Positions 53,495 through 58,140 of a stretch of 64,000 nucleotides of DNA are shown piece after piece. Under the pieces are notes generated by a model. It saw only the letters and a list, made by a program, of their open reading frames with translations, searched no databases and was not told the DNA's origin. The stretch spans positions 124,001-188,000 of the forward strand of contig JAOASS010000004.1 in the NCBI GenBank assembly GCA_030158485.1. Direction: 5' to 3'. This DNA comes from Pseudobdellovibrionaceae bacterium. GTDB taxonomy: Bacteria > Bdellovibrionota > Bdellovibrionia > Bdellovibrionales > Bdellovibrionaceae. A program made the translations under genes and the position numbers. Position 1 is the stretch's first letter, and each line of letters starts with the position of its first letter.

Positions 53495-54664
53495 ATGCTT
53501 CATGCTTTTTTGATTCTCGTTTTTTTCTGCTGCCCCGTTTGGTCACAAGACCAAGTCGTTAATCAATTTTCACGATCAAAAAACAAATCACGCACATCTT
53601 GCCCTGCTAGTAAAAACTATCTGCAAAATGATCTTAATTTCATGAGTTATCCTGATCTAACCCAACCCGATCCCTTTAACAAAAGCCGTACTTTAACCGC
53701 AACTTTGCTTCAAATTGGCCCACCTTCAAAACCATTGATTAATGCCAAATGCGTAGCAAACGCACTGGATCTTGTGACGGCGGGTTCTGCTAAAAAAAAT
53801 CAAGAAGCATTCAGAAGTAATCGTTTTTTTCGTTGCAACACTTTTAACGAACCACTCGATCATCAAGATGAACCCTGCAGAAGCGTCGAGTATAAATCTT
53901 TAATTCATACTTCATTTGAATTAACAACCCAATGCTTGAAAGAATTTGTTACGGGCAGCCGAGATGTTTCTTTGCAAAACACTTGGGTAGAAGGCTACTT
54001 TAAAATGCTCTCTAAAGAATCTGGATTACATGTTAATGTTGCTTCCCGAATTGGGGCTATAGGAGTTGGCCAATTAAGAGCTAAATACATCATTGATTTT
54101 GAGAATCGAACTTTACCCAGACTTAGAGCATTTCTGAACAGACCTGAGACTACTGAAGTCTGTAAACGAATTGGGAAAGAGCTTTTGACAAATGAAAAAA
54201 TCAGCAGACTTTATAAAATGACAACATCAACTTATTCAGAATCTAAAGACAATTCATCCACATCAGTTGTCAGAATTTGTGAAAATATCGACATTAATCA
54301 AGATCAGCCGCTACTGAATTTAATTATTAGTTTTTCAAATCTAAAGCTTTACAAAGAAAGCATACTAGATGGAATCTTTAATGACAGTCGATATAACAGT
54401 GCTTTCAAAGAACTTACACCGACTGAATTAATCGATTTGCAAATCAAAATGGTTTCATGGTCGTATAACTTAGGCCCGACGCGACTGAAAAATCATATTT
54501 TTAATATTCTTGATACAAAATACTCTGGCAAAACAATTACAAAAATCAGAGATTTTATTGTTGATGCCGAATTTGAAGGTAAAAAAAACTATCTGTTTGC
54601 AATAGAAGATCGATATAAACTTGTACTCTCTGGACAAAAAAGTTGCCGAACAGACCTTAAGTAA
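53495..54664 (+). CDS. Exported lytic-transglycosylase-like protein
   Basis: Signal peptide to about residue 18 (VWSQ). The core matches the SLT/goose-lysozyme lytic transglycosylase pattern: catalytic Glu in KESGLH (Glu175), then SRIGAIGVGQL, and further on WSYNLGPTRLKN, corresponding to the AYNAGPGNV motif. The N-terminal 150 residues are Cys-containing and unrecognised. It would cleave peptidoglycan glycan strands in the periplasm or prey wall. 389 residues. It heads the exported-protein group ending at 58.1 kb. No clear ribosome site. Confidence 0.65.
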   Translation: MLHAFLILVFFCCPVWSQDQVVNQFSRSKNKSRTSCPASKNYLQNDLNFMSYPDLTQPDPFNKSRTLTATLLQIGPPSKPLINAKCVANALDLVTAGSAKKNQEAFRSNRFFRCNTFNEPLDHQDEPCRSVEYKSLIHTSFELTTQCLKEFVTGSRDVSLQNTWVEGYFKMLSKESGLHVNVASRIGAIGVGQLRAKYIIDFENRTLPRLRAFLNRPETTEVCKRIGKELLTNEKISRLYKMTTSTYSESKDNSSTSVVRICENIDINQDQPLLNLIISFSNLKLYKESILDGIFNDSRYNSAFKELTPTELIDLQIKMVSWSYNLGPTRLKNHIFNILDTKYSGKTITKIRDFIVDAEFEGKKNYLFAIEDRYKLVLSGQKSCRTDLK

Positions 54665-54787
54665 AGGAATTAAAAATTTCCCGAATACAGCTTCTGTCAA
54701 AAGCTTAAGCAGTTGAAATCAATTCCCTTTCTTCTAAGGTCTTAATAACTAGGCATATTTTTTGTAAAGTCATATCCTGTGGAACGT

Positions 54788-55807
54788 ATGAATTTATTCT
54801 TTACCTTTATCATCTTAACGTTGAGTAACCTCAGCTTTGCTGGGAACTCGTGTTCATCACACTTCGATACGGTAAAGACAGATTTTTTAATTAGTGATGC
54901 AGTGAAATTAAAAGAACCCACTTTATTTTACAAAATTTATATCAAATCTGACAATCGATTTATTCAAAATAAAGTGTCAAAAGAAGACTTAGTCGATCTG
55001 TTTCAGATGTTCGGACAGACACAGTTTTTTAATGTCAGTGAAAAATTAACCCTTGAAAAAGGATCTCTTTTCTTAGGCAGAAAAATAGATGAATGGCTTA
55101 CAGCACAAGCCGAATATATTTATGACAAACCCAATCAAGCTTTACACTTATCGCGCATTACAATTGTAAATTCTAAAAATGGGCAAGAACAAATTTTAAC
55201 TAAAGAACCCCTCGATTACACAGGAACTCAACTTGTAAAAAACGAATTTAATGTTGTTTTTGAAAAAGGAAGTCCTACTGCAAAAATCGTTTCACCAAAT
55301 GATATAAAAGTCGATGACCCATCAAATGAATCTTCTCGAGTTGGCGCTCAGATTTTTTCGCTTAACAATGAAAATATAAGATCTACAGACGTCTTATTTC
55401 CGATAGCTGTTTCTGGTGAATCATTCAATAAAATAAAAAAATGGGCTTCTATTATTCCTTACTTAGATCATTCTGAAATTAGCATTGCTGGTTCTATCAA
55501 AAATCAAAATTGGGCCCTTATGAAAGGGCAGTATCGTCGATTTGCTGAATTCGCTAAAGACCGTTTTTTTAAGCAAGCTTTTGGATTAATCATTATTTAT
55601 GCGATTATTGATGGAATGAATAGTTTTAGCGGGGATGTCGCAAAATACATGGTCGATGTTGTACAGGAACAAAAAGCAACTTTATCGGTTAAAGTAAAAG
55701 AAACTCGAGTTGATGGGACTGTGACAAATTCTGAACAAAAATTTAAAATCATTTTTCCTGAAAAAGCTGAAACTTCAAATAAAGCTGCCTCTGGAGTTAT
55801 CAAATGA
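54788..55807 (+). CDS. Exported protein of unknown function
   Basis: I take ATG 54788 (MNLFFTFIILTLSNLSFAG), giving a clean signal peptide; a GTG three codons upstream is the alternative. About 339 residues. A hydrophobic stretch near residue 260 (FGLIIIYAIIDGM) may be a membrane or buried helix. No family recognised. Its stop overlaps the ATG of the kinase-like gene by four bases (ATGA), so the two are probably made together and may interact. Confidence 0.6.
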   Translation: MNLFFTFIILTLSNLSFAGNSCSSHFDTVKTDFLISDAVKLKEPTLFYKIYIKSDNRFIQNKVSKEDLVDLFQMFGQTQFFNVSEKLTLEKGSLFLGRKIDEWLTAQAEYIYDKPNQALHLSRITIVNSKNGQEQILTKEPLDYTGTQLVKNEFNVVFEKGSPTAKIVSPNDIKVDDPSNESSRVGAQIFSLNNENIRSTDVLFPIAVSGESFNKIKKWASIIPYLDHSEISIAGSIKNQNWALMKGQYRRFAEFAKDRFFKQAFGLIIIYAIIDGMNSFSGDVAKYMVDVVQEQKATLSVKVKETRVDGTVTNSEQKFKIIFPEKAETSNKAASGVIK

Positions 55808-57195
55808 AAATAATCTTATCTTTAGTCTTAAGTTTTGTTTCATTTTCTGCTTGGTCGCAATTTGATGCTTCAACTTCTCGCGGAACTGTTATGCGTCAAT
55901 TTAGTACCCCCAATAATAAACAAGAAATTTGCGTAATTCCCCAGCACTCGGCTCTTGGTCTCTATAGTAAAAAAGATTTCGATGATGAAAAAGAACTTTG
56001 CTCTTTTGATTTTCATGGTCTAACTGAAGACCGAGAAGTAAAACAAATGGCGTTGTGTCCAAAACTTAATAGTACAAATCCAGGTGTTTTGATAATGGAA
56101 ATACCCGAAAACTGGAGTAGAAATAAATTCGAAGCCGAAAAATGCTTGATTGATAATGAACTTCAAAAGACAGAAGCAAAATTCAAGCAAACTGTCACCT
56201 GTTCTTATACTCCTTCAATTCTCGCCTACTATCATTTTTCAAGATATTTAGGCGGCGCAGGAAGAGTTCCAGTATCTGTCTTAAGAACAATGTCTCGAGA
56301 TAGGCATTATAAAGTTACGCAACAAGGATTAATTGGTACTCGTAAAATTGGTGGAGCTATTCATAAAGGGTGGAATATTCTTAAAGAATCCCACGAGAAT
56401 TCTATACCTCAGGCTCTTTTGCATGACATCTCAGGCGATTTTCTTTTTGGCGCCCTTCAATCTAATATTAAAAATGAAGGAAAATATTACGAAATCATTG
56501 GCGGTGGTGAGTATGAGCAAAGATATAATAACTTTTTAAAAAAAGATTTCTACAAGCAACTTCAATCATCTCAAGATATTCTTGAAATTATCGGTTCAAA
56601 TCAGTTTGAAAAAGTCGCACAACCTATCTCCATGCTCAAAGATGCGACGGATATGATACTACTTGATACACTTTTGACTCAGCAAGATCGAATGTATAAT
56701 CAACATTTCAAATGGTCTTGGATTTGGCTTGAAAGTGGAAAAATTAAAACTAAACGTGTTGAAGCTAAAATGAATACGAAAGGAATTGTTACTTTTTCGA
56801 ATGAAAAAGAAAAAGCAGAACTAGCACAGTTTCAATCTAAAAATGCCGTTATGATCAAAGAATTAATTATGAAAGATAACGACTGCGGAGTTCGCGCTCG
56901 GTTTTACAGAAACAGAATGAAGGAAGTAAAAGCGCTTGATGGAATACGTCACATGAGTGGGAAGACTTATACAGCTTTTTTGAAGTTGGCTCAGAGCTTA
57001 AAAAATCCAGATATGATCGCTTATCTTAAAAATGAAACACTCATGTCTGATGCCGATTTAAAATTGATAATTCAAAATGTTTCTGAAGTTGAAACTACTT
57101 TGCGCTCAAAATGTCGCAGCGGAATCTTGAAACTAGACCTTGATCTAGAAACTTATTTTTCTTCAAGTCCTGAAATTTTTCAGTGTGATATCTAA
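55804..57195 (+). CDS. Exported protein with kinase-like motifs (Fam20/HipA type)
   Basis: 463 residues with a signal peptide to about residue 18 (SAWSQ). Residues 139-161 (ILAYYHFSRYLGG...RVPVSVLR) look like the helix and VP motif of the N-lobe in Fam20C-, HipA- and PI3K-like kinases. Residues 283-299 (DMILLDTLLTQQDRMYN) match the catalytic D-x3-D-x6-DR-x2-N pattern. DND at 358-360 could be the metal-binding DFG equivalent. The rest is divergent and the family is unproved. It is coupled to the upstream unknown gene and near a phosphatase-like lipoprotein. Confidence 0.5.
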   Translation: MKIILSLVLSFVSFSAWSQFDASTSRGTVMRQFSTPNNKQEICVIPQHSALGLYSKKDFDDEKELCSFDFHGLTEDREVKQMALCPKLNSTNPGVLIMEIPENWSRNKFEAEKCLIDNELQKTEAKFKQTVTCSYTPSILAYYHFSRYLGGAGRVPVSVLRTMSRDRHYKVTQQGLIGTRKIGGAIHKGWNILKESHENSIPQALLHDISGDFLFGALQSNIKNEGKYYEIIGGGEYEQRYNNFLKKDFYKQLQSSQDILEIIGSNQFEKVAQPISMLKDATDMILLDTLLTQQDRMYNQHFKWSWIWLESGKIKTKRVEAKMNTKGIVTFSNEKEKAELAQFQSKNAVMIKELIMKDNDCGVRARFYRNRMKEVKALDGIRHMSGKTYTAFLKLAQSLKNPDMIAYLKNETLMSDADLKLIIQNVSEVETTLRSKCRSGILKLDLDLETYFSSSPEIFQCDI

Positions 57196-57268
57196 CTTAA
57201 GTTTAGAATTTTCTACCAAACAAGATCTTAACTCGGGCTAAGCCACTTTCGACATCTAAAATAAAAGA

Positions 57269-58093
57269 ATGAGAAAATATATTCTTTTATTAAACTGTCT
57301 TATCTTCATTTCTTGCGCTGAAAAAAAACTGGCTGACTTGCCTTCATCTATTTCGGGTTCTGTTGATCAGCTTCCCCCGCCAACAGACATGCCTGACAGC
57401 GGATTAACTTCCGATGATAAAAACTTAGAAAAGCTATCCCGTGATGTTGCTTTCTATAAAAGTCGGTACCAGATGCCTGATGTTTACAAAAAAATAACAA
57501 ATGATCGTGGAAATGACTTTGAAGATCTTTACGGTACTCGAAATATGCGTGAAGTCTTAGCTGGTGTTTACTACCGAGGTGGTGGAAATAATAAGTATCA
57601 TAAAAAAAATCCCAGAAGTAATACGAATCCTTTACCCGCGGATGGCCTGATAAACTTATGTCAAGACGGATTTGTCACGAGCCTTTACTTTTACGAAACA
57701 AATTATAAGTCGGCAAAACCAGTCAATCCTTGCTTTCTACGGAATTCAGGTGACGCCAACACACTTAACTATCAACAACTAACAGCTTTCTCGATTCAAG
57801 ATTTTAGACCTTTTCTGCAATTGATTCACGACCGCATCAAAGGGAAATTAACAGGTCCTATCTATGGTCATTGTTGGAATGGATGGCATGCCTCGGGTCT
57901 GATGGCGTCTGTCGCTTTAAAACAGTTTTGTGACTTTACTGATGAAGAAGCAGATTTTTACTGGGTTAATAATACTGATGGGAATTCGAAGGGCTATGAA
58001 AGCGTTAGAAAAAAAGTACGAGCTTATAAAATGATCGCCGGTCTTGAAATCACAGAACAAGAAAAAGCTCTTATTTGTCCGCGTTCAAAATAA
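57269..58093 (+). CDS. Lipoprotein with dual-specificity-phosphatase-like loop
   Basis: Signal peptide with lipobox FISC (Cys16), so an anchored periplasmic or outer-membrane protein. Residues 98-131 (AGVYYRGGGNNK...GLINLCQDGF) resemble the N-terminal part of DSP folds. The loop HCWNGWHASG (201-210) matches the phosphatase HCx2G pattern, but the Arg six after the Cys is replaced by Ala. It may be an inactive phosphatase, a phosphate-binding protein, or an enzyme of altered mechanism. 274 residues. Poor ribosome site. Confidence 0.5.
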   Translation: MRKYILLLNCLIFISCAEKKLADLPSSISGSVDQLPPPTDMPDSGLTSDDKNLEKLSRDVAFYKSRYQMPDVYKKITNDRGNDFEDLYGTRNMREVLAGVYYRGGGNNKYHKKNPRSNTNPLPADGLINLCQDGFVTSLYFYETNYKSAKPVNPCFLRNSGDANTLNYQQLTAFSIQDFRPFLQLIHDRIKGKLTGPIYGHCWNGWHASGLMASVALKQFCDFTDEEADFYWVNNTDGNSKGYESVRKKVRAYKMIAGLEITEQEKALICPRSK

Positions 58094-58115: not shown

Positions 58116-58140
58116 CTGCTCAAGACTAAAGCTTGAGCAG
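58116..58140. terminator. Convergent terminator
   Basis: CTGCTCAAG-ACTAAAG-CTTGAGCAG is a perfect 9-bp stem between the phosphatase-like gene (+) and nuoI (-). On the plus side it is followed by CGAATATTTTTG. Confidence 0.6.

Follow-up and report, generated by a model that had tools for sequence, protein, structure and literature searches.

The window analysed here, a stretch of 64,000 nucleotides from a Pseudobdellovibrionaceae bacterium related to the predator Bdellovibrio, contains a gene (55804–57195, plus strand) for an exported protein of 463 amino acids with a Fam20-like kinase fold. Judging by its sequence, its predicted structure and its gene neighbourhoods, this protein is most likely an active exported kinase that would work in a phosphorylation module of the envelope or in one directed at prey. 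The points in favour of this reading are ten or more invariant residues, the match of the predicted fold, a profile alignment colinear with Fam20C, the exported N-termini of the homologues, the coupling to other genes and a fusion with a DUF2252 domain. The neighbouring genes tell more about the function than the motif does.

Export and Active-Site Motifs

The open reading frame starts with ATG, residue n beginning at position 55804+3(n−1); all features of the window described below lie on the plus strand. The N-terminus reads MKIILSLVLSFVSFSAWS-Q, and its residues 1–19 (MKIILSLVLSFVSFSAWSQ, 55804–55860) form a probable Sec signal peptide, the plausibility of which and the cleavage site were both judged by eye. 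An exported protein with a signal peptide had been proposed from the sequence alone, and the proposal is borne out by the hydrophobic N-terminus, without a strong internal hydrophobic stretch, that is present in 24 of 24 aligned homologues. The conserved cysteines at positions 43, 66, 85, 114, 437 and 461 do not map onto the pattern of four conserved disulfides characteristic of Fam20 kinases (PMC5865150). Among 49 distinct family members C43 and C66 never vary and C85 and C114 hardly do; the conservation of these four residues would suit an oxidising compartment.

The motifs picked out in the sequence-only reading, namely a helix followed by RVPVSVLR up to residue 161, the D283-x4-D288-x6-D295-R296-x2-N299 pattern and D358-N359-D360, were all located correctly. 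The alphaC-like helix (136–148) and RVPVSVLR (154–161) occupy 56209–56286 and were aligned to a Fam20C segment. The catalytic loop D288-x6-D295-R296-x2-N299 is encoded at 56665–56700 and the metal-site motif D358-N359-D360-C-G362 at 56875–56889. The profile alignment sets D295 and D358 on D458 and D478 of Fam20C (the latter within LDNGRGFG); D458 is the catalytic and D478 a metal-binding residue of Fam20C, which also requires E306 and E311 (PMC4421793). Upstream of the helix, the beta strand 123–129 carries K126-F-K128 (56179–56187), whose invariant K128 is a candidate ATP-binding lysine; the Fam20 profile that we used does not cover the region of the ion-pair lysine K285. Fam20C E311 aligns to I139, and the stretch from K128 to the helix holds no conserved acid.

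Eleven residues (K128, P156, D288, Q293, D295, R296, N299, D358, N359, D360 and H383) are conserved in all 49 distinct members, and the same eleven are kept in each of the 24 aligned homologues, down to 24% identity. The motif match, originally made by eye, is thus not a chance one, and the conservation of Asp295, Arg296 and Asn299, named at the outset as a check on the kinase assignment, is complete, as is that of Asp358 and Asp360. Residue 298 (56695–56697), beside the catalytic Asn299, is Tyr in the window copy versus Gly in 47 of the 49 members.

Predicted Fold and Relation to Known Kinases

The AlphaFold2 model of the protein, built from the 24-sequence alignment, has a pLDDT of 90.7 and a pTM of 0.90. 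In a Foldseek comparison with the PDB the first two ranks were taken by two chains of 5yh2 (Fam20A/DrFam20C1; E 3.1e-6 and 5.7e-6, probability 1.00), the only matches with E < 0.001. The next match was PI4KIIalpha (E 0.0029, probability 0.99), followed by weak matches to PI3K, CtkA and HipA. The full-length TM-scores are modest (0.40–0.43), as would be expected because the lobes are divergent and contain insertions. The suggestion of a kinase-type fold was therefore upheld by the model.

For the profile comparison the Fam20 sequences were taken from PDB entries. The first comparison aligned LAYYHFSRYLGGAGRVPVSVLR with a Fam20C segment of 21 residues at an hhalign probability of only 17%. Aligned globally by profile, the family and Fam20C are colinear, with DMILLDTLLTQQDR placed opposite DMTIFDFLMGNMDR and KDNDCG opposite LDNGRG; because D295-R is thereby paired with D458-R and D358-N with D478-N, we take D295 and D358 to correspond to D458 and D478. 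The local profile score was 32.4, whereas 60 shuffles of the Fam20C columns averaged 14.8 and peaked at 24.2, and reversing the profile gave 12.4.

Sequence searches of the PDB, with the single sequence as well as with the profile, yielded only chance matches (Apaf-1, HMGB3, IL-22), which were discarded, and the Pfam and NCBIfam searches fared likewise: no model of either collection matches the kinase domain. The protein has no match to PF06702 at E ≤ 10, nor to HipA_C (PF07804), PF00454 (PI3/PI4 kinases) or CotH (PF08757). A search of 97 genomes of the phylum with PF06702 was also without matches, and the control was equally empty, so this result is uninformative.

The class proposed from the motifs, that of Fam20C, HipA and PI3K-like kinases, stands in so far as the protein belongs to the same superfamily and is nearest to Fam20; the HipA and PI3K matches are weaker, and the Fam20C acids E306 and E311 are absent. 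Since these two acids have no counterpart, the family is, on its sequence features, better named Fam20-like than assigned to Fam20C or to Fam20 as a whole. The animal secretory pathway kinases Fam20A/B/C (PF06702) provide the best structural match and are exported like the window protein, and with Fam20C the colinearity begins at the alphaC helix and reaches the C-terminal helix, D-x6-DR and DN-x-x-G being aligned. In contrast to them, the window protein is bacterial, lacks a PF06702 match as well as E306 and E311, has another cysteine pattern and has about 40 more residues separating the catalytic loop from DN (63 residues from D295 to D358, compared with 20 from D458 to D478). HipA and CtkA are bacterial and belong by fold to the same superfamily (weak matches), whereas the window protein has a signal peptide and no Pfam match; no HipB-like partner gene was seen in the window, where the immediate neighbours encode exported proteins. 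With PI4KIIalpha and PI3K the protein shares the fold and a DR..N catalytic loop, but it is exported, lacks a Pfam match and resembles them less than it does Fam20.

Distribution of the Family

Of 60 related genomes, 16 contain homologues. A profile made from 24 of these homologues, applied to 291 genomes across Bdellovibrionota, gave 54 matches, which come from 44 genomes and include at least 49 distinct members. The source genome has a single copy of the gene. A contig search with peptides of one protein returned only two loci, both in metagenome-assembled Bdellovibrio or Bdellovibrionaceae records. As plasmids, phages and viral contigs contained no relatives of the kinase, there is no sign of mobile spread through these elements.

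Gene Neighbourhood and Partners

Four consecutive genes that read in the same direction encode exported proteins (53495–54664, 54779–55807, 55804–57195 and 57269–58093), the kinase gene being the third. The 389-residue product of 53495–54664 has a lytic-transglycosylase-like motif, ESGLHVNVASRIGAIGVGQL (ESG...SRIGAIGVGQL), recognised by eye, and no Pfam match; its gene is possibly the first of the kinase transcription unit. A terminator-like hairpin directly 3' of the fourth gene (58116–58140) is consistent with a transcription unit spanning 53495–58093; it was found by a consensus scan only, in which the total count of such hairpins was no higher than in shuffles. The second gene (54779–55807), the 3' end of which overlaps the start of the kinase gene by 4 bases, encodes an exported protein of 342 residues with one weak relative among 60 genomes and is nearly unique to the source genome. 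Being nearly absent from relatives, it was rejected as a fixed partner of the kinase. In another genome (G047, L070:7076-8263, plus strand) a DUF2252-like gene, a gene for an exported 396-residue protein and the kinase gene follow each other with overlapping ends; the middle gene is placed like the one at 54779 of the window and has no significant similarity to it.

The fourth gene (57269–58093) encodes a lipoprotein of 274 residues with a PTP/DSP fold and adjoins kinase genes in 16 genomes. In 11 of these the two genes are divergent, and in the other 5, as in the window, the partner follows the kinase directly; the gaps between the two genes measure 74–354 bases. This partner is present in 32 of the 291 genomes, 26 of which also have the kinase (4.8 expected), and at the genus level the kinase occurs in 12 of the 15 genera that have the partner (1.9 expected), counts which ignore shared ancestry. 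The model of the partner, based on five sequences only (pLDDT 70), matches PTP/DSP structures including PFA-DSP1 with a probability of 1.00. Its P-loop, HCWNGWHASG (residues 201–210, 57869–57898), retains the nucleophilic Cys and the Gly of PTP/DSP phosphatases such as the PFA-DSPs and Bd1204; unlike them, it has Ala in place of the CX5R Arg. Bd1204, an active phosphatase of B. bacteriovorus HD100, has the canonical P-loop HCRAGKGRT (PMC3981807). Since the Arg is replaced by Ala or Ser in every copy examined (HCWNGWH[A/S]SG or a close variant), the partner may not be a phosphatase. The Arg-less P-loop HCWNGWH[A/S]SG is almost invariant (57269–58093 of the window, L084-L092 and L110-L127), which is odd for a dead enzyme.

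Two further types of exported proteins recur next to the kinase. A metallophosphoesterase (PF00149) is encoded adjacent to it in 15 genomes from several families, and in one genome (G203) this gene and the PTP-like gene both flank the kinase. A DUF2252-type protein is adjacent in five sampled loci, among them G020, where the Fam20-like and DUF2252 domains are fused into one exported polypeptide of 823 residues (L006:430-2898, minus strand; the same gene is found in L065); a DUF2252-like gene also lies downstream of the kinase in L031 and L032. DUF2252 (PF10009) is a neighbour in the Pfam PKinase clan, with flipped lobes (PMC9758233); it is a separate domain with GDPHxxN and DxDD motifs and without sequence similarity to the window protein. 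What at one stage looked like a second kinase cluster in tandem consisted of DUF2252-like proteins linked in through a single fusion and was dismissed. Overall, one or more of the three partner types lie within 2.5 kb of 33 of the 54 kinase genes, and 21 loci have none of them within this distance.

Possible Function and Alternative Explanations

The recurrent adjacency to genes for exported phosphatase-like proteins suggests a phosphorylation system outside the cytoplasm. We consider it fairly probable that the protein is an exported, catalytically competent enzyme of the Fam20/HipA/PI-kinase-like kind within an envelope phosphorylation module. In such a module Lys128, Asp295, Asn299 and Asp358 would serve phosphate transfer from ATP to a target that may be a protein or a glycan of the periplasm, the cell surface or the prey. 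The kinase would be coupled to the PTP-fold lipoprotein, the metallophosphoesterase and/or the second, DUF2252-type kinase-fold protein, all of them exported, and these partners may read, remove or add the phosphate mark. The periplasm, to our knowledge, normally lacks ATP, which might, as a conjecture, be supplied by the lysed or invaded prey, a source that would leave the members from lineages without a known lifestyle unexplained. The fullest version of this scheme, in which a system of Fam20-like kinase, DUF2252 kinase, metallophosphoesterase and Arg-less PTP-fold lipoprotein (as a reader or an altered enzyme) is fed by prey ATP and marks proteins of the prey envelope or the bdelloplast, appears doubtful to us as a whole.

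Three other readings have to be weighed against that of an active kinase with a place in an envelope module. The exported kinase may have a lipid or sugar substrate (LPS core, peptidoglycan or polysaccharide) instead of a protein, like Fam20B or the PI4KII group. PI4KIIalpha is the second distinct fold match, the PTP-like partner resembles the PFA-DSPs, xylose is the substrate of Fam20B (PMC5865150), and the Legionella kinases that cluster with Fam20 and CotH have been suggested to act on lipids (PMC9758233). Nevertheless, we regard this possibility as unlikely: the nearest structure is that of the Fam20C group of protein kinases, and no glycan-synthesis gene is consistently linked at the examined loci, where most neighbours were compared without annotation.

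Kinase-fold proteins with changed active sites are capable of AMPylation, as in SelO, or glutamylation, as in SidJ. For such chemistry in our family speak the lack of the usual alphaC Glu and the unusual invariance of D360, the second Asp of DND; against it, the DR of the catalytic loop and the DN of the metal site are canonical and align with Fam20C, the Lys appears canonical too, and the metallophosphoesterase partners fit phosphate chemistry, though phosphodiesterases could reverse AMPylation too. It is accordingly ranked below the lipid or sugar kinase and held to be quite improbable. The least probable reading, to which we give very little weight, is that of a dead exported pseudokinase with a scaffolding or allosteric role like that of Fam20A towards Fam20C, perhaps activating the DUF2252 protein, a kinase-fold protein that is indeed adjacent or fused in some genomes. 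The alphaC acids, the loss of which renders Fam20A inactive (PMC4421793), are absent here; against this reading, no other catalytic residue varies anywhere in this deep family, and in most genomes no DUF2252 gene lies next to the kinase.

In a survey of the Legionella kinome the FAM20 cluster was described as eukaryote- or metazoan-specific (PMC9758233). In the searchable literature, which excludes most subscription papers and preprints, no kinase of this type is reported from Bdellovibrio. While the superfamily itself is well known, the literature searched appears to contain no description of the bacterial family, of its export or of its association with phosphatase-like and second-kinase partners. 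If the family is indeed a deep bacterial one with an intact catalytic site, exported and coupled to phosphatase-like genes, predatory bacteria and their relatives would routinely employ phosphorylation outside the cytoplasm.
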